Shown one piece after another: positions 29,997 to 44,059 of a stretch of DNA of 64,000 bases. Location: the NCBI RefSeq assembly GCF_014204985.1, contig NZ_JACHMP010000001.1, forward strand, positions 1,054,001 through 1,118,000. The letters run 5' to 3'. The first letter of the stretch is position 1; each line of letters begins with the position of its first letter. A model generated the notes under the pieces. That model saw only the letters and a list, made by a program, of their open reading frames with translations. It ran no database searches and was not told the DNA's origin. The DNA is from Streptosporangium becharense. Lineage in GTDB: Bacteria; Actinomycetota; Actinomycetes; Streptosporangiales; Streptosporangiaceae. The position numbers were made by a program, and so were the translations under genes.

Positions 29997-31757
29997 ATGT
30001 GGATCGAGGACTACGCGCTCATCGGTGACATGCAGTCGGCCGCCCTGGTCGGCCGGAACGGCTCCATCGACTGGCTCTGCCTGCCGCGCTTCGACTCGCC
30101 CTCCTGCTTCGGGGCGCTGCTCGGCGACAGGAAGAACGGCCAGTGGTGGATCGGTCCCTCACACGCCGAACGGCCCCGCGCCGACCGGCGTCGCTACCGG
30201 GGCGAGACGCTCATCCTCGAAAGCGAGTGGGACACCCCCACCGGCACCGTCCGGGTGATCGACTTCATGCCCACCCGGCACGCCAACCCCGACCTGGTCA
30301 GGATCGTCGAGGGCGTGTCCGGGACGGTGGACATGGCCACCGAGATCCGCATCCGTTTCGACTACGGCCGCATCGTGCCGTGGGTGCGCCGCACCGACGG
30401 CCTGCTCCAGGCCGTCGGCGGGCCCGACTCGGTCTGGCTGCACTCCCCCGTCCCGCTGCAGGGCGGCGACTACGCGCACCGCGCGGGCTTCCGGGTCTCC
30501 GAGGGGGAGCGGCTGGCGTTCATCTTCACCTGGCACCCCTCCCACGAGCCCAAGCCGGTCGAGATCGACCCGTACGAGCAGCTGACCGCGACCGAGGAAC
30601 TGTGGGACGAGTGGGTGGCCCAGTGCACCTACCGGGGCCCGTGGCGCGAGGCCGTGGTGCGCTCCCTCATCACGCTCAAGGCGCTCACCTACGCCCCCAC
30701 CGGCGGGATCGTGGCCGCCCCCACCACCTCGCTGCCCGAGGACCTCGGCGGGGTCCGCAACTGGGACTACCGCTACTGCTGGCTGCGCGACGCCACCATG
30801 ACCCTGGACGCCCTCATCGGCGCCGGGTACCTGGACGAGGCCCGCGCCTGGCGGGCCTGGCTGCTGCGCGCCATCGCCGGCCGTGCCCAGGACCTGCAGA
30901 TCATGTACGGCGTCGCCGGGGAGCGCCGCCTGACCGAGCTCGAACTCGACTGGCTGCCCGGTTACGAGGACTCCCGGCCGGTCCGGATCGGCAACGGCGC
31001 GGTCGACCAGCTCCAGCTGGACGTCTACGGCGAGGTGATGAACTCCCTGCACCTGTCGCGCGTCTCGGGCATCGAGCCGGACCACCGGGCCTGGACCATC
31101 CAGCGTGAGCTCATCGCCTACGTCGAGGAGCACTGGGACGAGCCCGACGAGGGCCTGTGGGAGGTCCGGGGACCGCGCCGCCACTTCACCCACTCCAAGG
31201 TGATGTGCTGGGTGGCCCTCGACCGGGCCGTCAAGCAGGTGGAGTCCTTCGGCAAGGCCGGCCCGGTGGCGCGCTGGAAGGAGGCGCGCGACCGCATCCA
31301 CGCCGAGATCTGCGACAAGGCGTTCGACCCGGTGCGCGGCACCTTCACCCAGTCGTACGGCTCGCGGGAGCTGGACGCCGCCCTGCTGCTGATCCCCATC
31401 GTCGGCTTCCTGCCGCCGGAGGACCCGCGTGTGATCGGGACGGTCGAGGCGGTCCAGCGCGAGCTGATGGTCGACGGTTTCGTACTGCGCTACCCGGTCT
31501 GCGCCGACAACGACGTGGACGGCCTGCCGGGCGGCGAGGGCGCCTTCCTGGCGTGCAGCTTCTGGCTGGCCGAGGCACTGGCGATGATCGGCCGCAAGGA
31601 CGAGGCCGTCGAGCTGTTCGAGCGGCTGCTGTCGCTCCGCAACGACGTCGGGCTGCTCGCCGAGGAGTACGACCCGCGCTACGGCCGCATGGTCGGCAAC
31701 TTCCCGCAGGCGTTCAGCCACGTCCCGCTGATCCACGTGGCCCGCGCGCTCAGCTGA
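29997..31757 (+). CDS. Glycoside hydrolase family 15 protein (glucoamylase or trehalase)
   Basis: A 586-residue cytoplasmic protein starting at ATG 29997, with no signal peptide. The N-terminal beta-sandwich begins IEDYALIGD and GSIDWLCLPRFDS. The (alpha/alpha)6 barrel contains NWDYRYCWLRDA and a candidate catalytic Glu in the ELDWLPGYEDSRP region, with a second acid near AEEYDPRYG. Actinobacterial members of this architecture include trehalases and glucoamylases; substrate is not decidable here. Single gene. Confidence 0.9.
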   Translation: MWIEDYALIGDMQSAALVGRNGSIDWLCLPRFDSPSCFGALLGDRKNGQWWIGPSHAERPRADRRRYRGETLILESEWDTPTGTVRVIDFMPTRHANPDLVRIVEGVSGTVDMATEIRIRFDYGRIVPWVRRTDGLLQAVGGPDSVWLHSPVPLQGGDYAHRAGFRVSEGERLAFIFTWHPSHEPKPVEIDPYEQLTATEELWDEWVAQCTYRGPWREAVVRSLITLKALTYAPTGGIVAAPTTSLPEDLGGVRNWDYRYCWLRDATMTLDALIGAGYLDEARAWRAWLLRAIAGRAQDLQIMYGVAGERRLTELELDWLPGYEDSRPVRIGNGAVDQLQLDVYGEVMNSLHLSRVSGIEPDHRAWTIQRELIAYVEEHWDEPDEGLWEVRGPRRHFTHSKVMCWVALDRAVKQVESFGKAGPVARWKEARDRIHAEICDKAFDPVRGTFTQSYGSRELDAALLLIPIVGFLPPEDPRVIGTVEAVQRELMVDGFVLRYPVCADNDVDGLPGGEGAFLACSFWLAEALAMIGRKDEAVELFERLLSLRNDVGLLAEEYDPRYGRMVGNFPQAFSHVPLIHVARALS

Positions 31758-31917: not shown

Positions 31918-32160
31918 ATGAGCGACTTCAGCGTCACCGACTCCTACGACACCAACGGCGACGGCGCGTACGACGTGGTGCTGGAGGACACCAACTTCGA
32001 CGGTGTGGCCGACACCGAGCTCTACGACACCAACTTCGACGGCAAGACCGACGTGCAGTACACCGACTTCAACGGCGACGGCATCACCGACGAGGTCCGC
32101 GTCGATCTCAACGGCGACGGTGTGACCGACTACACCGAGACGGGTCCCTTCTCCGCCTGA
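31918..32160 (+). CDS. Small acidic protein with D-x-N-x-D-G repeats (putative calcium binder)
   Basis: An 80-residue protein starting at ATG 31918 behind AAAGGA, no signal peptide or membrane segment. It has five repeats of the form DTNGDGAYD, DTNFDGVAD, DTNFDGKTD, DFNGDGITD and DLNGDGVTD, resembling calcium-binding loops of EF-hand, dockerin or thrombospondin type 3 repeats. It is strongly acidic with almost no basic residues. It sits 88 bases upstream of the GrpE-like gene in the same direction and may belong to the Hsp70/dynamin group. Function unknown. Confidence 0.75.
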   Translation: MSDFSVTDSYDTNGDGAYDVVLEDTNFDGVADTELYDTNFDGKTDVQYTDFNGDGITDEVRVDLNGDGVTDYTETGPFSA

Positions 32161-32248
32161 TCAGATCACCCGGCATAATCCCGTGTGATCCCACCGAGGG
32201 GGGAACCCGTACCCGGGTCACACGGGCGGCCGACCAGGAAGGCGACCG

Positions 32249-33379
32249 ATGAGGCATCGACGCGTGCTCCTTTCCCTGCTGCTCATCGCTCCACCGGTGC
32301 TGGCCGCCGGCGGCGTGGCGGCGGCGGATTCCCGCGGAAAGGGGCCCGGCGGGCCTCCGGCACCCCTGCGTCCCAGCGGAGGGCCTCTGCGGCCCGCCGA
32401 AGAGGATGCGGGGCTGCTGGGCGGGTTCGCCCCGCTGCCCCTGATGCTGCTGCTGGCCGCGGGCGGTCTGGTGCTGATCGCCGCCGCCTTCTACGTCTGG
32501 CACCGCAACCGCACCCCGGCTCCGGGAACCTGGCAACCCGGCGCCGCTCAGCCCGGCGCCGTCCCGCCCGGTGCCGTCCAGGCCCAGGGGGGAGCCGTCC
32601 CGCCCGCCGCACCCGGGACATGGCCCGCCGCCCCCGCCGTGCCCCCGGACGCGGTGACGCCCCCGAACCCGGCGATGCCCGCGGAGCACGCGGCCACCGG
32701 GACACCGGACGCCGAACACCGCCCGCCGCCCGCCGTAACCGAGCCGGCGGTGGCGGAACCCGGAACGTCCCAAGCCCCGGCCGGGGTACCGGCCGAGACG
32801 ACACCGGAGCCAGCGTCGGCGTCGGGCCCGACGCCGTCCGGCGACCCCGGCATGCCCTTCCCCCAGGTGGAGGAGGTGGAGGGCACTCCCCAGGGAACGC
32901 ACGGGCCGGGGGCGGACACCCCGCCGGAGACGGCGGAGGACGACCGGCGGGGACCGGCGGCGCCCGGCGGGGGCGACCCGCTGGCGCAGGCCCTGGCCGG
33001 GATCACGGAGAGCGGGATCAGCCCCGCGCTCGCGCAGCAGGTGGAGCGGCTCTTCGCCGACGGGCATCCGGGACGCGAGGCACTCGTCGCCGCCTGCATC
33101 GCCTACCGGGACCAGATCGCCGAACGACACCCCCAGCTGGCCGCGACGCTGCTGGAGGGGCTCGACCGCGCCGGCGTCCGGGAGCTCGTCGCGGACGGGC
33201 AGCGGTTCGACCCGCGTGCGCACGAGGCCTTCGGCGTCGAGCCGACCGATCGTCCCGAGCTGCACGACGTCGTGGCGGAGACCGTCAAGCGGGGGTACGC
33301 CGACGGCGAGCGGATCATCCGCGTGCCGCAGGTCGCCGTGTACCGGCACGATCCCTCCGGTGCGGGGCCGACACCGTGA
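32249..33379 (+). CDS. Membrane-anchored protein with GrpE-like C-terminal domain
   Basis: A 376-residue protein starting at ATG 32249 behind GAAGGCGA. It has a signal-like N-terminus (about 1-26), a membrane segment at about 59-80 (LPLMLLLAAGGLVLIAAAFYVW) followed by HRNR, a Pro/Ala-rich linker (about 85-240), and a C-terminal domain (about 250-376). The end, LVADGQRFDPRAHEAFGVE then VAETVKRGYADGERIIRVPQVAV, follows the pattern of the GrpE beta-head (FDPxxHEAV...GYxxxxRVLRPAxV). The long GrpE coiled coil is missing. I propose a membrane-tethered nucleotide exchange factor for the Hsp70-like protein at 38322-41006. Confidence 0.7.
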   Translation: MRHRRVLLSLLLIAPPVLAAGGVAAADSRGKGPGGPPAPLRPSGGPLRPAEEDAGLLGGFAPLPLMLLLAAGGLVLIAAAFYVWHRNRTPAPGTWQPGAAQPGAVPPGAVQAQGGAVPPAAPGTWPAAPAVPPDAVTPPNPAMPAEHAATGTPDAEHRPPPAVTEPAVAEPGTSQAPAGVPAETTPEPASASGPTPSGDPGMPFPQVEEVEGTPQGTHGPGADTPPETAEDDRRGPAAPGGGDPLAQALAGITESGISPALAQQVERLFADGHPGREALVAACIAYRDQIAERHPQLAATLLEGLDRAGVRELVADGQRFDPRAHEAFGVEPTDRPELHDVVAETVKRGYADGERIIRVPQVAVYRHDPSGAGPTP

Positions 33380-33456
33380 ACGCCGCGCTCCCGGTGCCCG
33401 CGCCGCCCCGTGGACCGGGCCCGCCCCGGAGGCCGGCTCGGCCCGGCGGGTCCGGC

Positions 33457-34014
33457 TCAGTTCTCGGCGACGCCCTCGGCGAGGGCGGCCCGCAGTCGCC
33501 GCCGGCCCCGGTGGATCCAGACCCGCACCGTGTTGAGCGGCACCCCGGTCGAGGCCGCCACCTCCTCGTAGGCCAGCCCGCCCGCCCGCAGCAGCAGCAC
33601 CTCGCGCTGCGGTGGCGGCAGCTCGGCCAGCGCCCGGCGCAGGTCGGCCAGGCCCGCCACCAGGTCCTCGAAAGGCTCGGCGATCACCGAGTCCTCGGCC
33701 ATCTCGGCGTGGAGCACCCCCTGGGAGCGGCGCCGCACCACCGTGTACGCGGCGTTGCGCGCGATGACGAGAACCCACGCCCGGAAGGACGAGCCGCCCC
33801 GGAAGGCGTGCAGGCCGCGCCAGGCGGCGAGCTGCGTCTCCTGGAGGGCGTCGAGCGCGTCGGCGCGGTGCCCCGTCAGGTGGTAGCAGAGGCCGAAGGC
33901 CGGACGTTGCACCGGGGCCCACAGCGCGCGGAAGGCGGTCTCGTCACCGGCGCGTGCCCCGGCGAGGAGAAGCGCCTCGTCGTCGAGTTCCGCGTCCAGC
34001 GTCCCGGTCGTCAT
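33457..34014 (-). CDS. ECF-family RNA polymerase sigma factor
   Basis: A 185-residue protein starting at ATG 34014 behind GGAGG; earlier in-frame starts lack a site. Region 2 spans about 15-90 (GDETAFRALW, DALDALQETQLAAWR), and region 4 has LPPPQREVLLLR, YEEVAASTGVPLNTVRVWIHRGRRRL. No anti-sigma gene is adjacent. It is convergent with the GrpE-like gene and divergent (54-base gap) from the small protein/dynamin operon, so it probably controls that operon. Confidence 0.88.
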   Translation of the reverse strand: MTTGTLDAELDDEALLLAGARAGDETAFRALWAPVQRPAFGLCYHLTGHRADALDALQETQLAAWRGLHAFRGGSSFRAWVLVIARNAAYTVVRRRSQGVLHAEMAEDSVIAEPFEDLVAGLADLRRALAELPPPQREVLLLRAGGLAYEEVAASTGVPLNTVRVWIHRGRRRLRAALAEGVAEN

Positions 34015-34068
34015 CGGTCGCCCATCCTCCACGGGTGGAAAGTCAGCCAATGACACCATGCCGGATGA

Positions 34069-34404
34069 ATGTCCGGTAAGAAGCGGCAAATCCTGATATT
34101 GGACCGTAACAATCTCTGGTTGGGGCCACCGTTGGAGGAGTCAGACGACCTGACTGAGCTGCGTCGGCTCCTTTTCACGGCGATCCCGTACCCCACCGAG
34201 GAGGAGAACCTGGCGATGCTCGCCCAGACGCTCTCGTCGAGCACCCCCGACCTGTCCCTGTTGCCCGGCCCTGATGGGTTCGGTCCCCCACCTCCGCAGA
34301 GCGCGGCAAGGCCGCTCGTGCCCTGTGCCCGGCGATCCGCGGACCGCGCGGGCGGCCCGGACGACGCCGACGGCACCGACCACGCGGCGGGGGGGCGGGC
34401 ATGA
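34069..34404 (+). CDS. Small conserved-looking protein coupled to dynamin-like gene
   Basis: A 111-residue protein starting at ATG 34069. The first 70 residues look folded (KRQILILDRNNLW, ELRRLLFTAIPYPTEEENLAML); the last 40 are disordered. The opening codons are less GC-rich than the neighbourhood (CTG-ATA-TTG, AAC-AAT). Its stop overlaps the dynamin start as ATGA (34401-34404), which implies translational coupling and argues it is real. I do not recognise a family; it may be a partner of the GTPase. Confidence 0.65.
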   Translation: MSGKKRQILILDRNNLWLGPPLEESDDLTELRRLLFTAIPYPTEEENLAMLAQTLSSSTPDLSLLPGPDGFGPPPPQSAARPLVPCARRSADRAGGPDDADGTDHAAGGRA

Positions 34405-36227
34405 CCGCCGGACCCGCCGAACTGCTGCGCGGCCTGTGCGACGCCACGGCGGCCAAGCTGGCCGGCGCCGAGCTGCGCGAACGGGTGGCGCAGGTGCGTG
34501 CCGACCTCGACGCGCCGCTGCGCGTCGCGGTCGCGGGCGCGGTCAGCAGCGGTAAGTCGACCCTGGTCAACGCGCTGCTCGGGCTGCCCGTCGCCCCGGT
34601 CGACGCCGGTGAGTGCACCTTCGTCGTCACCCAGTACGAGTACGGTGAGGACGACGGCCTGATCAGGATCGAGCTCAAGGACGGCGGCGTGGTCCACTCC
34701 CGGCTGCTGCCGGGTCACCGGCTCCCCTCCGAGCTGGGCGTCGACGTGGCCGTGATCCGGCGCCTGCGGGTCTCGCTGAACCTGCCGTCGCTGCGGACGG
34801 TCACCATCATCGACACGCCGGGCATGAACACGGTGACCGCCACCAACGAGCGGGCGGCCCGGAGCATGCTGTTCGGCTCCGGTGACGAGGACGACCGCGC
34901 GCAGGCGATGATCTACGTGCTGCGCTACGTCCAGAAGTTCGACGACACCACCCTGTCGGAGTTCCGCGGCCTGACCGACGCCTGCGGCATGAGCTGCGTC
35001 AACACCCTCGCCGTGCTCGGCCAGGTCGACCGGCGCGGCGACGAGGACGACCCGTGGCCCACCGCCAGGCGGCTGGCCGCCAAGGGCTACCAGGACCTGC
35101 GCACCTCGGTCTACGACGTGGTCCCGGTGATCGGCCTGCTGGCCGAGACCGCGCGCGCGTGCCCGCTGGACGCCGAGGAGATCGAGGCGCTGTCGGTGCT
35201 GGCCGGGCTCGACGAGGACGACCTGGAGGACTACCTCCTCGACCTGGAGGACTTCCGCACGGCGTCCGACCTGCCCGTGCCGGCCGAGGTACGGCGCCGC
35301 CTGGTCGAGCGGCTGCACCGCTACGGCATCGCCACCGCGGTGGAGGCGGTGCGCAACGGGGTCCGCGACGCCGGCGCGCTCACCGCCCACCTGCTGGAAC
35401 GGTCGGGATACGCCTCGGCGGGACGGGCCGCGACCGGCTCGGTGGCCGCGGGCATCGCCCACTTCGCCCGCCGCGCCGACCAGCTCAAGGCGCTCGACGC
35501 GCTGACCCGGCTGCGCAAGCTCGCCCGCACGCCCGCGCTGGGCGCGGACCGCGCCACCCTGGACGCGCTCGCGGCGCAGCTCGACGAGAACAAGCCGATC
35601 GCGACCGCGCTGGGCGGCCTGCGGATCTTCGCCGCGGCCGAGGCGCTCGGCCGCGGCACCCTGGTCCTGAACGAGGAGATGACCGAGGAACTGCTGCGCC
35701 TGTCCCGCCACGACGACCCCGCCGAGCAACTCGGCCTGCCCGCCGGGGCGCCGCGGCAGGAGATCGCCGCGGCGGCCGTGACCGCGTCGATGCGCTGGCG
35801 CACGCTCGCCATGATGAGTGAGGGCCGCAGCGCCGGGCACCGGGCCAGGGACGTGCTGACCGTCCTGGAGGACATCGTCACGGCGGCGCTGGACGAACCG
35901 GACACCCCGCAGGCCGCGGGCGGCGAGGCACTGCCCCCGCTCCGCGTCGACCCGGCCGCGGTCGAGGCCCTGCGCGCCTCCCCCATGGTCCCGGCCGACG
36001 ACCGGCGGGCGCTGGAGCTGCTGCTGTCCGGCACCGAGCTCGCCACCCAGCTCGGCGCACCGCCCGGCAGCCCGCGCGCCGAGGTGGCGGGCTACGCCGC
36101 CGCCCTGGGGGCCCGCTTCCGGACCCTCACCCACCGCCCGCTGTCCCTGCGGCAGCGCCGGGCGGCGGAGACCCTCTGCGAGGCGTACGAGACCGTCTGG
36201 TCGCGCTACCACCAGGAACAGCCCTAG
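34401..36227 (+). CDS. Dynamin-like GTPase 1
   Basis: A 608-residue protein starting at ATG 34401. The GTPase domain (about 38-260) has the G1 P-loop GAVSSGKS (46-53), a Thr in GECTF for G2, G3 DTPGM, and a G4-like VLGQVD. The remainder is helical with no clear membrane segment. Paired bacterial dynamins (IniA/IniC, DynA/DynB) often have one member without its own membrane anchor. It is followed 80 bases later by a second dynamin-like gene, and likely assembles with it at the membrane. Confidence 0.85.
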   Translation: MTAGPAELLRGLCDATAAKLAGAELRERVAQVRADLDAPLRVAVAGAVSSGKSTLVNALLGLPVAPVDAGECTFVVTQYEYGEDDGLIRIELKDGGVVHSRLLPGHRLPSELGVDVAVIRRLRVSLNLPSLRTVTIIDTPGMNTVTATNERAARSMLFGSGDEDDRAQAMIYVLRYVQKFDDTTLSEFRGLTDACGMSCVNTLAVLGQVDRRGDEDDPWPTARRLAAKGYQDLRTSVYDVVPVIGLLAETARACPLDAEEIEALSVLAGLDEDDLEDYLLDLEDFRTASDLPVPAEVRRRLVERLHRYGIATAVEAVRNGVRDAGALTAHLLERSGYASAGRAATGSVAAGIAHFARRADQLKALDALTRLRKLARTPALGADRATLDALAAQLDENKPIATALGGLRIFAAAEALGRGTLVLNEEMTEELLRLSRHDDPAEQLGLPAGAPRQEIAAAAVTASMRWRTLAMMSEGRSAGHRARDVLTVLEDIVTAALDEPDTPQAAGGEALPPLRVDPAAVEALRASPMVPADDRRALELLLSGTELATQLGAPPGSPRAEVAGYAAALGARFRTLTHRPLSLRQRRAAETLCEAYETVWSRYHQEQP

Positions 36228-36307
36228 GGGCCCAGGGCGCCCCGCGGACGGCGTCGCCGGCAAGGGACGGCGGCGCCGCACGATTCCCCCGACAGGAGAC
36301 GACGACA

Positions 36308-38266
36308 TTGACGACCCCCGACCCGAACGGCCCCGTGGCGCGGCTGCTGCGTTACGCCAACGAGGTCCACGCCCTGGCCAAGCAGTCCGGCAGGCAGGAC
36401 CTGGCGGAGATGCTGGCCACGTGCGCGAGCCGCTGGAAGGACGAGTGCACCGACATCGTGGTGGCCGGGGCGCAGAAGCGCGGCAAGAGCCGCCTGATCA
36501 ACACCCTGGTCGGCCGGCCCGACCTGGTGCCGGTCGACGCCGACGTGGCCACCAACTGCTTCCTGTCGCTGCGACGCGGCCCGCAGCTGGCCGCGGTGGT
36601 CCACCGCAACACCGACAAGGGGCTCGTGCAGACGCCGATCACGGTCGAGTCGATCCCCGACTACGCCTCGATGCGTGGTGACATCGGCAAGCGCCGCGAC
36701 GTCGTCAGCGTGGACATCACCCTCGACACCCCGCTGCTGGACGGCCTGCGGCTGCTGGACACGCCCGGCGTGGACAGTCTCACCGTGGGGCACCGCCAGG
36801 TGACCGTGGCGATGCTCCAGCGGGCCGACGCGCTGCTGTTCACCCTCAGCGCGCAGGACCAGCCGGTGCTCCGGCACGAGCTGGAGTTCCTCGCCGAGGC
36901 GGCCGAACGGGTCCAGGCGATCGCGTTCGTGCTGACCAAGGTGGAGGACTCGGCCAACTGGAAGAGCCTCATGGAGGAGAACAAGGCCCGGCTGCGGACG
37001 TTCGTCACCGAGGCGGTCGCGGCCGACCCGGGCAGGACGGCGACGCTGAGCCCGCTCCTGTCCGCGCCGTGGATCCCGGTGAGCGCCAAGCTCGCCGAGG
37101 CCGCCGAGGCCAAGCGCCGCGAGGGACGCCACGAGCGCGCGGCCGCACTGCGGGCGCGCAGCGGCATGGACGTCCTGGAGCGGCACCTGCGTGCCTTCGC
37201 CGAGGGCCGGGACTCGGCGCGGGGGGCCACCGTGGTCGCCGCCGCGCTGTCGGCGCTGGGCTCCCTGACGGCCGGGGCCAAGGACGACGTCGCCGTCGGC
37301 TCCGACGACGAAGGCGACCTGGCCGCCCGCCTCGCCGAGGTGGAGGCCGATCTGGAGAGCCTCGCCGAGCTGACCGCCAAGCGCCGGGCCGGCGCGGTGG
37401 CCAACACCTTCCTCGCCCGCGAGGTCGGCGGCATCGTGGCCGCCCGGTTGACCGAGATCCGTCAGCCGTACGAGAACACGATCGCCACCCTGAAGAGCCA
37501 GGCGCAGATCGACAAGTACATGGCGGAGATGCCGGAGAGCGCTCAGCGCTCGCTGGAGGCCGCCTGGTCGCAGATCGTCTACGACGTGGAGGCCCTGGCG
37601 CGGACCACCCTGGACGCCTTCGCCCGCGATCTCGGCCTCGACCCGGTGAACCTGGCCGCCGACCGGCGAACGGCGCCCAACCTGTCGCAGATCCAGGTCA
37701 GGGGTGACACGGCCGCCGACGAGCCGGTCAACGTGGACCTGGTGCGCGACGTGCTGCCGTCGGCGTCGATGGGCCTGTCGTTCGGCGGCCTCGCCGCCGC
37801 CGCGCTCGGCCCGGTGGGCTTCCTCCTGGTCGCCCCCGCCCTGGGGGCGGCCATCTACTTCGGGCGGCGCAAGATGGAGCAGGTCCAGCGCAGCCAGGCG
37901 GCGATCAGGAACGCGCTCCGCGACCAGTTCGCCCTGGTCACCCGGGAGATGACGCTCGACGTGGAGCGGATGGTCACCACCTGGCGGGTGAACGTCGAAC
38001 AGGCCGCCGACGACAGCCTGTCCCGGCGCCGCAAGGAGCTGGAGACCCGGCGCGCCGAGCTGAAGTCCGCCTCGGCGCGTTCGGCCGCCGAGCGGCGCAA
38101 GGCGCGTGAGTCGGGCCAGGAGCGCATCTCCAAGATCGCCGAACTCACCACCCGCGGCCACGCGCTCCGCAAGGAGCTCGCCACCGCCGTGGCCGCCCTC
38201 GGCGCCGCCCCGCCGGCCCCCGCCGGGACGCAGGGGGCCGTCCCCCCGGTTCCCGCCGGAGCCTGA
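36308..38266 (+). CDS. Dynamin-like GTPase 2 with hydrophobic hairpin
   Basis: A 652-residue protein starting at TTG 36308 behind AGGAGA. G1 is GAQKRGKS (54-61), G3 DTPGV, G4 LTKVED. Helical arms follow, and near residues 485-520 a hydrophobic hairpin (SMGLSFGGLAAAALGPVGFLLVAPALGAAIYFG) with charged flanks, like the paddle that inserts bacterial dynamins in membranes. After it comes a long coiled coil rich in Arg/Glu/Lys, then a Pro/Ala tail. Ends at a bidirectional hairpin facing the Hsp70-like gene. Confidence 0.87.
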   Translation: MTTPDPNGPVARLLRYANEVHALAKQSGRQDLAEMLATCASRWKDECTDIVVAGAQKRGKSRLINTLVGRPDLVPVDADVATNCFLSLRRGPQLAAVVHRNTDKGLVQTPITVESIPDYASMRGDIGKRRDVVSVDITLDTPLLDGLRLLDTPGVDSLTVGHRQVTVAMLQRADALLFTLSAQDQPVLRHELEFLAEAAERVQAIAFVLTKVEDSANWKSLMEENKARLRTFVTEAVAADPGRTATLSPLLSAPWIPVSAKLAEAAEAKRREGRHERAAALRARSGMDVLERHLRAFAEGRDSARGATVVAAALSALGSLTAGAKDDVAVGSDDEGDLAARLAEVEADLESLAELTAKRRAGAVANTFLAREVGGIVAARLTEIRQPYENTIATLKSQAQIDKYMAEMPESAQRSLEAAWSQIVYDVEALARTTLDAFARDLGLDPVNLAADRRTAPNLSQIQVRGDTAADEPVNVDLVRDVLPSASMGLSFGGLAAAALGPVGFLLVAPALGAAIYFGRRKMEQVQRSQAAIRNALRDQFALVTREMTLDVERMVTTWRVNVEQAADDSLSRRRKELETRRAELKSASARSAAERRKARESGQERISKIAELTTRGHALRKELATAVAALGAAPPAPAGTQGAVPPVPAGA

Positions 38267-38280
38267 CGGACTCCACCACC

Positions 38281-38315
38281 CGGCCCCCGCGGACCCGTCC
38301 GGTCCGCGGGGGCCG
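38281..38315. terminator. Bidirectional hairpin terminator between dynamin 2 and Hsp70-like gene
   Basis: A perfect 15-bp inverted repeat (38281-38295 and 38301-38315) with a 5-nt loop lies between the convergent stop codons (38266 and 38322). Confidence 0.8.
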
Positions 38316-38321
38316 TGGCGT

Positions 38322-41006
38322 TCACAGGGGCAGGTGCACCAGGGTGGTGGGCTGGTCCCGGGCGATCCCGCTGACGTCGGTGGGACGGTGCAGGCAGAGC
38401 AGGCCGGTGGCGACCCGGGCGACCGGCTCGAACATGCCCGGCGTGCGGTGCACCTCCCGGGCCCCTCCCGGGGTGACGTGCAGCAGCCGGCTGCGGCCGG
38501 CGTCCAGCATGGTCATCCACATCGAGTCGCCGTCGGCCACCAGGCGCGGACGCTCCCAGCGGTAGCGGGAGGTGAGGTGGCCGGCGAGGGTGGCCGACTG
38601 CTTGCCCATCAGGAACTCCAGCGTCTGGGTCCGCTGGTCGAAGATCCCGACCGACCAGCCGCGGGCGGGGCTGAGCTGGTCGGTGCCGACCGCGTAGATC
38701 TGGTTCCCGGCCGGGAACCAGCGCAGGGCCCCCGCCCGGGGACGCGGCATGACCAGCTTGGTCTGGCCGCCCGCGACATCGGTCTCCAGCCCCGCCGAGC
38801 TGGAGGTGAACCAGCGTCCCCGGTGCAGGACCACCTGGTGGAGCCAGGGGCGGCCGGGCTCGCGCACCGTCGGACGCACCACCCCGCCGGGGTCGACCAG
38901 GCACAGCACCTGCCACGGCCTGAAGTCCTGGTGCCGGTTCTGGAACATCGGCTTGTTGCTGCTGAACTGCCCGAGCACCACGGTGCAGCCGAGTGCCCCG
39001 ACGGAGGGCGACGGTTCGGCGCCGCTGGGCGCCTCCTGGTCGAGCAGGCGGCGCAGCCGGTTGTCCTCGTTCAAAAACCACTGGGCCTGCACGCCGAGAT
39101 CCCGCGGCGGGGGAGGCTGGAACGCGAAATTCCCGGCCAGATCGAACTCGATCATCGCCAGCTGCCCGATCTCCCCCCACGGCAGGCCCACCGTGGTGTC
39201 GACCGGGGTGGGCTGCCGTGACTGGAAGAAGACCCACGCCGTGCGGCCGTGGGCGATCGCGGTGGGGTTGCCCCACATCTGCATCGGGTAGGTGCCGCGG
39301 ATCGCCAGATCCGGGGTGAGCGTGCGGACCAGCACCTGCGCCGGACCGACCTGCTCCACCGTGACCAGGCCCTCGTGCGAGAGCGCCCACTCCACCAGCC
39401 TGCCGAACCCGAGCTCGCGGTCGTGGCGGCCGTCGAGACCGTCGAGCCTGCGCAGAAAGTGGCCGCTCTCGAACGCCTGGTGGACGAAGATCCGTCCCCC
39501 TTCGACCCGCGCGTCCAGCACGCCGTCCATGACCTTCTCGATGCCCGGAACGGTGGGCCCGCCCGCTCCGGCGCCCGCGGGCACCCCGCCCGCCGGAGCC
39601 GGAGCGGCCACGGGACCCGCGAATCCCTGCGGGCCGGTGTGCGGGGCGCCCGCCGGACCGGGGGGGATCTGGTGCCCGCCGGTGGCGCCGTCCGCCGGAC
39701 CGGTGAAGGCGCCGTGCCCTCCGGCCGGCGTCACGACCGGGCCCGCGGCGGGCCCGGCGAGGGCGTGCGGCCCCGCGACGGGGAAGGCGTGCCGTCCCCT
39801 GGACGCTTCGGCCGGGCCGGTCCCGGGTGCGACCGGCAGAGCATGGGAGGCGCTCAGCGAGCCGTCCAGGACGGCGTGGTCGGCGGCCCGCACCGGACCG
39901 GAGGAGTGGACGGGATCGCGGGACTCGACCTTCAGCTTCCAGGCGAGCTGGGCGGCGCCGTAGGCGACGACGATCTTCGGGTCGTCGTAGGTCCGGACCC
40001 GGTCGCCGAAGCGTTCGCGCACGACCTTCTGCACCAGCGGCATCCGGCTGGGGCCGCCGGTCATGAACACCGCGGCCAGCTCGTCGACCTGGACGCCCGC
40101 GCCGCGGATCGTCTCGTCCAGGATGTTGACCGTCCGGATGATCTCCTCGCCGATGAGATCCTCCAGGTCGGCCCTGGTGATGTGCACGTCCTCGTTGATG
40201 CCGACCACGTAGTGCGAGGAGGTGTCGAACTTCGACAGCGTCTCCTTGGCCTCCCTGGCCATCTTCAGCAGGTCCGCGGCGTAGCTGACGTAGCGGCGCT
40301 CGGGGTTGGTGGTGACCTGCTGCCACCACTCGGCGTCGATGCGCTCGATCTGCGTCCCGAGGAAGGCGAACACCTGCTCGTCGAAGCCCTCGCCGCCGAT
40401 CTCGTCGCTGCCGCCCGGCTCGCCGACGACCGCGAAGTCGCTCCCGTCGACGGTGAGCACGGCGGCGTCGAACGTGCCGCCGCCGAGGTCGTAGACGGCC
40501 AGGTGCGACCCGCCGCCCGCGGCCCGGCCCGCGGAGGCGAAGTAACGCGCCGAGGCGACGGGCTCGTCGACCAGCACGATCCGCACCCCCCGCACGACCT
40601 TCTTGGCCGCCGCCAGCAGCACCGCCTTGCGGTCGGCGCCCCAGGCCACCGGGTGGGTCAACGCGATGCAGTCGGGGTCGGCCCCGTCGAACCGCCGCCG
40701 CCCCTCGCTCACGAACAGTTCGAGCAGGGCGGCCATGGCGTCGACCACGTCCACCGGCACGCCGCCCAGCAGCATCCGCCCGCGGCCGACGTACCGTTTG
40801 GGGTTGCGCTCAACCCGTTCGGGACTGATGCCGATCCCCCGCTGGGCGATCCGTCCGGCCACGAGCGTCCCCCGCTCGTCGAGCATCACGGCGGAGGGAA
40901 CCCGCCGCTCCCCCTCGACCTCCAGCACGTCGAAACGCCCTTCGGCCGCTATCACCCCGGCGGAGAAACTCGTCCCCAGATCGACACCGAGGCACCACTG
41001 CGCCAT
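38322..41006 (-). CDS. Hsp70-like ATPase with linker and novel C-terminal beta-rich domain
   Basis: An 894-residue protein. Residues 1-360 are a complete Hsp70 nucleotide-binding domain: phosphate-1 LGVDLGTSFS, THPVAWG, phosphate-2 YDLGGGTFDAA, adenosine motif MTGGPSRMPLV. A Gly/Pro/Ala/His-rich linker spans about 364-482. The C-terminal 410 residues lack a canonical Hsp70 peptide-binding domain and lid. They instead contain repeated Trp/Phe-containing beta-strand units (AHGRTAWVFFQS, HRGRWFTSSSA, LRWFPAGNQIYAVG, ADGDSMWMTML) that look like a beta-propeller. It faces two dynamin-like GTPases and probably works with the GrpE-like protein. Role inferred from context. Confidence 0.85.
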   Translation of the reverse strand: MAQWCLGVDLGTSFSAGVIAAEGRFDVLEVEGERRVPSAVMLDERGTLVAGRIAQRGIGISPERVERNPKRYVGRGRMLLGGVPVDVVDAMAALLELFVSEGRRRFDGADPDCIALTHPVAWGADRKAVLLAAAKKVVRGVRIVLVDEPVASARYFASAGRAAGGGSHLAVYDLGGGTFDAAVLTVDGSDFAVVGEPGGSDEIGGEGFDEQVFAFLGTQIERIDAEWWQQVTTNPERRYVSYAADLLKMAREAKETLSKFDTSSHYVVGINEDVHITRADLEDLIGEEIIRTVNILDETIRGAGVQVDELAAVFMTGGPSRMPLVQKVVRERFGDRVRTYDDPKIVVAYGAAQLAWKLKVESRDPVHSSGPVRAADHAVLDGSLSASHALPVAPGTGPAEASRGRHAFPVAGPHALAGPAAGPVVTPAGGHGAFTGPADGATGGHQIPPGPAGAPHTGPQGFAGPVAAPAPAGGVPAGAGAGGPTVPGIEKVMDGVLDARVEGGRIFVHQAFESGHFLRRLDGLDGRHDRELGFGRLVEWALSHEGLVTVEQVGPAQVLVRTLTPDLAIRGTYPMQMWGNPTAIAHGRTAWVFFQSRQPTPVDTTVGLPWGEIGQLAMIEFDLAGNFAFQPPPPRDLGVQAQWFLNEDNRLRRLLDQEAPSGAEPSPSVGALGCTVVLGQFSSNKPMFQNRHQDFRPWQVLCLVDPGGVVRPTVREPGRPWLHQVVLHRGRWFTSSSAGLETDVAGGQTKLVMPRPRAGALRWFPAGNQIYAVGTDQLSPARGWSVGIFDQRTQTLEFLMGKQSATLAGHLTSRYRWERPRLVADGDSMWMTMLDAGRSRLLHVTPGGAREVHRTPGMFEPVARVATGLLCLHRPTDVSGIARDQPTTLVHLPL

Positions 41007-41248
41007 CTCACACTCCTCGAAATCCAGACCCCATCATCCCGCATCCGGCGACCACATCCCGGGCGCGGGCGGACATGCCGGGAACAATCCAGAAAGCGGA
41101 GCGAGGGCCGTCGGGGTGAACGCGGAGTGAGGACCGTCCCGGGCCCGCCCGCGGCGCACCGAGGCCGTCCCCGTCGCCCACCGTACATGTGCCGGACGGC
41201 AGGAGTTCCCACCGCCCACCGCACCGGGGACGCGCTCGCGATCGGCGG

Positions 41249-42181
41249 TCAGTTCCCGCCGGTCCCGGGATCGGGGCGGACGGCCAGGTCGGCGAGGACC
41301 CGGGCGAAGTCCGGCGGGGGTGCGACGACCAGGCGCGTCTGCCCGTCCTGGCTGACCAGGTCCGCCCGGATGAGGGTGAGCCGGTCGTCGTGCCACCAGT
41401 AGACCTGCGGGCTGAGCGCTCCGGCACGCAGGTCGAACTCCCGCTGGGCGAGCAGCCTCAGCCGCTCGATCGCCCGGACCACGCCGATGCCCTCGACCGG
41501 GTGGACGATGAGCGTCGCCGCGTCGGGGAGCGCCACCAGCACACCCTCCGGCGGAACGGGCAGGTAGTCGCCGAGCCGCCGCAGGTGGGCGGCGGCCCCG
41601 GCGGTGGTGCCGGTGAGCCTGCGGACCGCCACGCCACCGAGGTCGTCCTCGGTCATCGACAGCCGTTCGTCCTGCCGGACGTTGTCCAGGGCCAGGTCGA
41701 GCGCCTGGGCGGCGGTGATCGGCCAGCAGCCGACCTCCTCGGGCCGGACCGGGCGGCTGGTGACGTCATGTCCGATGGTCAGCACCTCGACCAGGTCGGC
41801 GGTGAGGTGCCGGCCGACCACGCGGGCCGACTCCAGGTCGTCGTCGAGCTGGATGCGAGTGCGCAGCAGCGGGCGGATCTGGTCCAGGTCGCACGCGTCG
41901 AGGGGCTCGTCGACGGTGGCCAGGGTGTGCGCGAGGTGCTCGGAGACGAGCATCGGCCAGTCCTCGCGCGAGCGCCGGCGGGCCTCGGCGCGCAGCCCGG
42001 TCAGCCGGACCACGATGTTCCGCGGGCCGGTGAGGGTGAGCGACTCCCCGCCGGGATCGAAGGAACAGGTGTATCCGAGGGTGTCGGCGACCAGCGCGAG
42101 CAGGGAGTCGAGGTCGACCTCCTCGATCGGACGCGGCGGTGTCTTGGCCCGCCGGTCACGGCTCCGCCGGAACAGCCTCAC
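41249..42181 (-). CDS. Conserved protein upstream of Hsp70-like gene (DUF1444/YtpQ-like?)
   Basis: A 310-residue protein starting at GTG 42181 behind AGGGGGGA. It opens with a basic tail (RLFRRSRDRR), then mixed alpha/beta sequence with GPRNIVVRLTGL, IRPLLRTRIQL, LTADLVEVLTIG, and ITAAQALDLALDNV. This order resembles DUF1444/YtpQ-type proteins, but I cannot verify it. No catalytic motif or membrane segment. It is in the same direction as the Hsp70-like gene, 242 bases upstream, and may be co-regulated. Confidence 0.65.
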   Translation of the reverse strand: MRLFRRSRDRRAKTPPRPIEEVDLDSLLALVADTLGYTCSFDPGGESLTLTGPRNIVVRLTGLRAEARRRSREDWPMLVSEHLAHTLATVDEPLDACDLDQIRPLLRTRIQLDDDLESARVVGRHLTADLVEVLTIGHDVTSRPVRPEEVGCWPITAAQALDLALDNVRQDERLSMTEDDLGGVAVRRLTGTTAGAAAHLRRLGDYLPVPPEGVLVALPDAATLIVHPVEGIGVVRAIERLRLLAQREFDLRAGALSPQVYWWHDDRLTLIRADLVSQDGQTRLVVAPPPDFARVLADLAVRPDPGTGGN

Positions 42182-43177: not shown

Positions 43178-44059
43178 ATGCGACCTCCGCCCCACATCCT
43201 GGTGGTCAACGGCATCAAGGTCCACCAGCCGGTGTTCGTGCTCGCCGCTCCGCACTCCGGCGCGGGGCTGGTGGCCCGTGCCCTGAAACGCTCCCCCGGA
43301 TTCCACGTCACCATGGGGAAGGCGACGGTCTCACACGTCGCCCGCGCCTTCGCCCGGCGTCCCTCGATCGCCGGACGGGGCATGGGCGCCACCCGGGTGC
43401 TGCGCGACGCCATGGCCGAGTCGTGGCGGATCCTTCCGGACGCCTGCCGCCGGTGCCCGGCGCCGTGCCGGGAGGCAGGCGGTGTGACGGGGGCGGGCCC
43501 CTGCGCGAGCGCGGGCTCGGTGACCAGGTTCGGCGACGCCAGCCCCGACCTGCTCTACAGCGCCACGGTGCTGTTGCAGGCGTTCCCCGACGCCCGGTTC
43601 GTCCAGCTCATCAGGGACGGGCGTGACGTGGCCGCCGACATGATGGCCGACCCCGAGGCCCTGGCGTGGTTCAGGCCGGCCATGCTGACCGACGAGACGG
43701 AGTTCCCCAACCCGTTCCTGGGCGTCAACTCCGGCGAGCATCGGGAACGCTGGAAGGCGATGCCGACCGCCGGCAAGTGCGCGCTGCGCTGGCGCAGCGC
43801 CGTCCGGCTGTCGGCGTCGCTGCGTCGCGAACTGCCCCGCGAGCAGCTGCTGACCCTGCGGTACGAGGACGTGGCCGCCTCCTTCGCCGACACCGCCGAA
43901 CAGCTCACGGCCTTCCTCGGCACGCGCGTCTCCAGGATCGCCCTGTACGGCGGGAACGCTCCGCGGGTCGGCGTCTGGCGGAGCCGTCTGCGCGGCGCGG
44001 ACGCCGAACTGGTGGCGAAGGTCGCCCGCGAGGAGCTCACCCGCCTGGGTTACGCCTGA
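43178..44059 (+). CDS. Sulfotransferase family protein
   Basis: A 293-residue protein from ATG 43178. It has the PAPS 5'-phosphosulfate loop APHSGAGL (about 25-32) and the 3'-phosphate motif LIRDGRDV, typical of cytosolic sulfotransferases. A Cys-rich patch (CRRCPAPC, GPCAS; about 89-110) is unusual and could bind metal or form disulfides. The ATG directly abuts the divergent S66 start (CATATG), leaving no room for a private ribosome site, so the true start may be the in-frame GTG near 43201 or the mRNA may be leaderless. Substrate unknown. Confidence 0.82.
   Translation: MRPPPHILVVNGIKVHQPVFVLAAPHSGAGLVARALKRSPGFHVTMGKATVSHVARAFARRPSIAGRGMGATRVLRDAMAESWRILPDACRRCPAPCREAGGVTGAGPCASAGSVTRFGDASPDLLYSATVLLQAFPDARFVQLIRDGRDVAADMMADPEALAWFRPAMLTDETEFPNPFLGVNSGEHRERWKAMPTAGKCALRWRSAVRLSASLRRELPREQLLTLRYEDVAASFADTAEQLTAFLGTRVSRIALYGGNAPRVGVWRSRLRGADAELVAKVAREELTRLGYA

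Follow-up and report, generated by a model that had tools for sequence, protein, structure and literature searches.

The genes between positions 31918 and 42181 of the window (the whole stretch of 64,000 nucleotides of Streptosporangium becharense DNA that was analysed) raise the question of what an Hsp70-like ATPase and a GrpE-like protein do beside a pair of dynamin-like GTPases. The initial annotation had taken them for a candidate chaperone and dynamin system with its own ECF sigma factor, in which a membrane-tethered exchange factor suggested that the Hsp70 acts at the membrane, perhaps in assembly or disassembly of the dynamin coat. Every gene that it named was found in the block by ORF calling and profile searches, and the features are as follows:

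31918-32160, + strand: Ca-loop-like repeat protein, small and acidic, 80 aa, with DxNxDGxxD repeats; the module begins with this gene (ORF call)
32249-33379, + strand: membrane-anchored GrpE-like protein, 376 aa, predicted nucleotide-exchange role (Pfam GrpE 3.8e-10)
32432-32500, + strand: transmembrane (TM) segment of the GrpE-like protein, aa ~62-84 (hydropathy and motif scan)
33080-33349, + strand: GrpE head, short helices and beta-wing (AlphaFold2 and fold comparison)
33457-34089, - strand: ECF sigma factor, oriented divergently to the dynamin operon (Pfam Sigma70_r2/r4_2)
34069-34404, + strand: small protein, 111 aa (ORF call; no family in Pfam or profile searches)
34401-36227, + strand: dynamin 1, dynamin-like GTPase, 608 aa (Dynamin_N 5e-13)
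36308-38266, + strand: dynamin 2, dynamin-like GTPase, IniA-like, 652 aa (Dynamin_N 2e-16)
38322-41006, - strand: Hsp70-like ATPase, 894 aa, made up of a nucleotide-binding domain (NBD), a Pro/Gly-rich linker and a C-terminal domain (Pfam HSP70 8.6e-32)
39915-41006, - strand: Hsp70 NBD, aa 1-364 (Pfam; invariant ATPase residues)
38325-39599, - strand: C-terminal domain of the Hsp70-like protein, ~425 aa, subtype-specific (conserved within the subtype)
41249-42181, - strand: 310-aa protein, a neighbour (ORF call)

The Ca-loop-like gene is present in 12 of 12 syntenic relatives, at loci L160-L163 and at the Actinokineospora locus L188; the EF-hand_5 match of its product (E 0.0056) does not reach Pfam's cut-off. 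Conservation of the 111-aa protein is confined to its first ~53 aa, and its gene shares 4 bases with the start of the dynamin 1 gene.

The presence of a GrpE-like head in 32249-33379, on which the proposal depends, was assessed by structure prediction. The Pfam match lies at aa 298-364 and corresponds to profile positions 98-163 of 165, i.e. to the last third of the profile only. An AlphaFold2 model of the head, built from the sequence in the window together with 23 rows of other genomes, reached a pLDDT of 94-98 over model residues 41-130. The 12 leading Foldseek matches were all GrpE or GrpEL1, and the model aligned with GrpEL1 (9bls; VIA Z 11.0, rmsd 1.9 Å over 95 residues) and with E. coli GrpE (1dkg; VIA Z 10.8), the next unrelated fold scoring 5.4. 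The head was thus found, and the model gives solid support for a beta-head of the GrpE type, the fold expected to bind the Hsp70 NBD. The long N-terminal paired dimerisation helix is absent: the Pfam match misses it, and the head is preceded by a Pro-rich linker and a TM segment.

The GrpE-like protein starts with an N-terminal signal segment, followed by one TM segment, a Pro-rich linker of ~160 aa and the head. The residues HRNR stand directly after the TM segment, and by this distribution of charge the C-terminal head is predicted to be cytoplasmic. A lipobox Cys follows the first hydrophobic segment in 12 of 12 close relatives and is missing from the window copy. A membrane-anchored exchange factor, as first proposed, is borne out in the window type, in Frankia and in several others but is not a general rule, because the tether depends on the lineage. 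In Pseudonocardiaceae and other lineages GrpE is soluble; at L161 and L162 a soluble GrpE head is accompanied by a separate gene for a small two-TM protein, located between the Ca-loop and GrpE genes; and in many Corynebacteriales the TM segment is carried by the Hsp70. No anchor was seen in the hydropathy and motif scan of loci L104, L166, L167, L170 and L172. Overall, the sequences point to a membrane-bound component in the units of many lineages, which is not always GrpE. No earlier description of a membrane-anchored GrpE was found in the open-licence literature.

The Hsp70-like protein matched the HSP70 profile up to position 372 of 599, where the NBD ends, and phmmer matched it to the NBDs of Hsp70 and DnaK at ~1e-26. 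The ATPase residues (DLGT, K70, P119, E148 and DLGGGTFD) are conserved, with K70, P119, E148 and DLGGGT invariant across 11 divergent Hsp70s of the module. Pfam and PDB sequence searches found neither a substrate-binding domain nor a lid following the NBD, and the canonical inter-domain linker was not seen. The C-terminal ~425 aa had no match in Pfam or, by sequence, in the PDB; they are well conserved inside the window subtype, and a single-sequence AlphaFold prediction gave a pLDDT of 42. At the same position the Hsp70s of other lineages carry different parts: a WD40 propeller, a PQQ propeller or a 9-TM domain in Frankia, and a TM segment with an external domain in Smaragdicoccus, Rhodococcus, Williamsia and Corynebacterium. 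A propeller was also considered for the window protein; the comparison with the WD40 and PQQ profiles of module Hsp70s was not significant, and a propeller is therefore not claimed. The NBD is of the Hsp70 type; the label of chaperone, in the sense of protein folding, is doubtful, because the lack of a substrate-binding domain and of any J-domain protein in the block argues against an ordinary folding role. Two further arrangements were observed in passing. In Frankia (L103 79-2274 and L067 3329-6454) an Hsp70 NBD is fused to about nine transmembrane segments, and in Geodermatophilus pulveris (L090 16365-19049) one long ORF adjoining the dynamin pair holds a stretch that by eye resembles vWA, followed by an Hsp70 NBD.

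The closest solved relative of both dynamins is M. smegmatis IniA (for dynamin 2, E 8.7e-18 with 6j72). Dynamin 1 was matched by the shorter dynamin of the mycobacterial loci and, to judge from profile and size, would be IniC-like. Its G1 (GAVSSGKS) and G3 (DTPG) motifs are intact and its G4 is degenerate (GQVD), while dynamin 2 has GAQKRGKS, DTPG and TKVE for G1, G3 and G4. This division recurred in 13 of 13 loci compared, with GQVD or SQID as G4 of dynamin 1 and TKVE as that of dynamin 2. A hydrophobic stretch near aa 485-520 of dynamin 2 may serve as a membrane paddle. When the block was searched with PADLOC, only the dynamins matched (LeoA/LeoBC at 5e-14 to 5e-20); the similarity is generic to dynamins and falls short of a clear assignment to the LeoABC anti-phage defence system. 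At L173 (5882-7609) a broken dynamin 2-type gene, spread over several frames, lies beside an intact dynamin pair and a 372-aa Hsp70 NBD.

Linkage of these genes was then assessed within the family. Of 121 family genomes, 13 have the subtype-specific Hsp70 C-terminal domain; the same block was found in all 12 relatives. Three of the 12 (L025-L027) have the block but none of its GH15, LD-carboxypeptidase, ABC or 310-aa neighbours, and the module therefore moves as a unit. In a search of the 121 family genomes, with dynamin 2 alone as the query (E < 1e-18), 27 loci were selected; within 10 kb of them an Hsp70 NBD was present in 27/27, a GrpE head in 23/27 and an ECF factor in 19/27, so that the co-occurrence of Hsp70, GrpE-like protein and dynamins, proposed as a check on the initial annotation, holds. 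These loci are related and do not represent 27 independent events; the variety of gene orders and flanking contexts is the stronger argument for linkage. Two GrpE proteins and two clear Hsp70s are encoded in the genome of the window, besides a weak, partial Hsp70 match at 5771035. One Hsp70/GrpE pair belongs to the canonical dnaK-grpE-dnaJ operon and the other to the block. With these numbers linkage by chance at a single locus would be expected at ~1%, and chance is not an explanation.

Outside the family, a named-genome search with the dynamin 1 alignment as query yielded 52 actinobacterial loci with both dynamins. A GrpE head was present in 28 and a strong Hsp70 NBD in 12, six of which were without GrpE; two recurring Frankia genomes had been part of the profiles, and their hits, like that in Prauserella isguenensis, are by construction. 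Among the 21 remaining loci, which come nearly all from other phyla and of which several end at contig ends, none had an Hsp70 or GrpE beside the dynamin. Frankia, Geodermatophilus, Smaragdicoccus, Rhodococcus and an actinobacterial MAG have the dynamin pair with GrpE and Hsp70, in some cases also with an ECF factor, but arranged differently. An Hsp70 without GrpE was seen at L166, L170, L172 and L173, and also in Corynebacterium and Williamsia. Pseudonocardiaceae have a dynamin-GrpE-dynamin operon with tight spacing or overlap and no Hsp70 within 10 kb; most of the related Hsp70s checked in this family are encoded elsewhere in the genome, without dynamins. Actinokineospora enzanensis has this operon and, in addition, a complete block of the window type with the same gene order. 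Near the mycobacterial dynamin pairs (L106-L119, L129) a degenerate Hsp70-like NBD is joined to a TM segment and a Pro/Thr-rich external tail; the ATPase motifs of these proteins look lost, and no GrpE was found beside the pairs in the loci scanned. Overall, the distribution is patchy (13/121 and 7/395 genomes), and the family and other actinobacterial loci bear out that a dedicated, conserved unit of Hsp70, GrpE, dynamin pair and ECF factor exists.

The sigma factor has both ECF regions (region 2, Pfam 3.9e-14; region 4, 6.3e-17). An ATG at 34014 is conserved in 10 loci, and the gene probably starts there rather than at 34089. A promoter-like block, TGYAAC-N17-ACTCT, is located upstream of the Ca-loop gene (31918) in 10 loci (the window and 9 relatives) and is a possible target of the ECF factor; comparison of the upstream regions of the loci revealed no shared promoter element before the Hsp70 or sigma genes. 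The conserved 310-aa protein, which had been counted as part of the system, has to be taken out of it: the gene occurs without the module in a same-genus genome, and the L025-L027 genomes have it on a contig other than that of the module. Of 121 family genomes 76 carry the gene, whose product matched no Pfam or NCBIfam family. In close relatives a GH15-type gene (29997-31757; glucoamylase/trehalase-like by sequence) is found directly upstream of the module. Trehalose is a cue for iniBAC in mycobacteria; the GH15-type gene does not accompany the distant copies and is probably a mere neighbour.

The reading of the block as one functional unit is supported by the domains, the GrpE head structure, the repeated linkage, the active-site motifs (conserved in the ATPase and mostly so in the GTPases) and the anchoring of GrpE or Hsp70 in the membrane, seen in many lineages. 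Counted against it are the Pseudonocardiaceae operon without adjacent Hsp70, the loci without GrpE, the soluble GrpE of several lineages, the missing J-domain protein, the degenerate G4 of dynamin 1 and the upstream comparison, in which no ECF-type promoter shared by the genes was found. With both sides weighed, we give about even chances to the block being a single unit that works as a chaperone-gated dynamin machine on the inner side of the cell membrane.

In such a machine the two dynamins would form a hetero-oligomer on the membrane, like other bacterial pairs; paired dynamins hetero-oligomerise and IniA cuts membranes (PMC6104087, PMC6715688). Since it has no substrate-binding domain, the Hsp70-like protein would serve as an ATP/ADP conformational switch rather than as a folding machine, and its variable C-terminal part would read a signal or dock on the dynamins. 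The GrpE head, on its anchor and long flexible linker, would open the Hsp70 cleft, so that the reset to ATP takes place only at the membrane. Assembly or disassembly of the dynamin coat could thereby be local and cyclic, by analogy with the action of Hsc70 on clathrin. The ECF sigma factor would turn the module on, most likely in envelope stress if the iniBAC literature is a guide (PMC5760070, PMC6715688). We infer a switch function of the Hsp70 on the dynamins and a resetting function of GrpE at the membrane. The wider form of this proposal is more tentative and in our estimate falls somewhat short of an even chance: the Hsp70, having lost its folding function, would be a dedicated ATP-driven dynamin switch reset by a minimal, membrane-confined exchange head, and the modules would make up a widespread actinobacterial class of which mycobacterial iniA/iniC are a reduced form.

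The alternative that survives best, although we regard it as unlikely, is that Hsp70 and GrpE form a sensor or signal switch for an invader or envelope damage with the dynamins as effector, i.e. a stress or conflict system like the DO-GTPase/HSP70/GrpE loci. The C-terminal parts of the Hsp70s are as variable as those of sensors would be (WD40 and PQQ propellers, external domains, 9-TM), the distribution is patchy (13/121, 7/395 genomes), and a comparable set of two GTPases with HSP70 and GrpE has been published (PMC7159879). However, neither effector domains nor a DO-GTPase match were found, the whole genome has no GAP1-N2, and PADLOC reported only the generic dynamin similarity to LeoA/LeoBC. 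An improbable explanation is that the Hsp70-like and GrpE-like proteins are a private folding or membrane-targeting chaperone, which stabilises the dynamins and does not regulate them. The genes are inherited together, and purified IniC was too unstable for study (PMC6715688); yet the substrate-binding domain, the canonical inter-domain linker and a J-domain protein are all missing. Dynamin pairs, moreover, occur without an adjacent Hsp70.

Even less probable is a developmental task of the dynamin pair, tuned by Hsp70 and GrpE, such as septation in sporulation (cf. Streptomyces DynA/DynB). Corynebacterium, Rhodococcus and Williamsia do not sporulate and have dynamin-Hsp70 loci, and most of the family members searched do not have the module. 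These points outweigh its presence in filamentous actinobacteria and the action of DynA/DynB in sporulation division (mentioned in PMC6104087). That the genes are mere neighbours or hitch-hikers on a mobile island, without joint function, would agree with the patchy distribution but is strongly disfavoured and the least probable of all, as the set is kept together across gene orders, families and flanking contexts and 0/21 loci outside the actinobacterial set have Hsp70 or GrpE beside a dynamin.

The proposed dynamin switch can be compared with several known systems. Like iniBAC, the module has paired dynamins, with IniA as the nearest solved relative of both, and divergent Hsp70-NBD-TM proteins occur near the mycobacterial pairs; in M. 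smegmatis a dnaK-like gene is located directly downstream of iniR (Boot et al., PMC5760070). In contrast to the module, no GrpE was found beside the mycobacterial pairs and their Hsp70-like ATPase motifs are degenerate, and iniBAC is controlled by IniR and not by an adjacent ECF sigma factor. Kaur et al. (2020) described actinobacterial DO-GTPase pairs with HSP70, GrpE and GAP1 (PMC7159879). These GAP1-N2 systems likewise combine two GTPases with HSP70 and GrpE, are membrane-proximal, and have HSP70s that sometimes lack the peptide-binding domain, as in the module (PMC7159879). The module differs in that its GTPases are dynamins, in that GAP1 and a DnaJ/FNIII protein are missing, and in having a minimal self-anchored GrpE, an ECF sigma factor and an Hsp70 C-terminus replaced by other domains. 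Membership of the GAP1-N2 DO-GTPase systems was therefore rejected (the GTPases match Dynamin_N, the Pfam scan found no DO-GTPase, and GAP1-N2, PF20013, had no match in the whole genome); by analogy, the module may nevertheless work on similar lines. Campylobacter Cj-DLP1/2 and Streptomyces DynA/DynB are also two different dynamins adjacent in an operon, but no Hsp70 or GrpE has been reported with them in the literature surveyed. The canonical DnaK-GrpE system has the same NBD and the same GrpE head fold. The module, unlike it, has no substrate-binding domain, and its GrpE is membrane-tethered and devoid of the long N-terminal helix; in the GrpE of M. tuberculosis this helix makes contact with DnaK (PMC10803776). 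Open-licence papers contained no description of a dynamin-Hsp70-GrpE system, the nearest published cases being the DO-GTPase/HSP70/GrpE loci, with other GTPases, and the dnaK-like gene next to M. smegmatis iniR.

The conserved set in soil-type actinobacteria suggests that a chaperone-like cycle controls membrane remodelling. If this is true, an Hsp70-GrpE pair is used outside protein folding. The Hsp70 switch, the membrane exchange factor and the sigma factor are concrete, purifiable candidates for the on/off regulation of bacterial dynamins, which bears on the role of IniA/IniC under isoniazid or ethambutol. Finally, beyond the 310-aa gene the called starts of an LD-carboxypeptidase-like gene (- strand) and a sulfotransferase-like gene (+ strand) overlap at 43178-43306, and one of the two is probably wrong.
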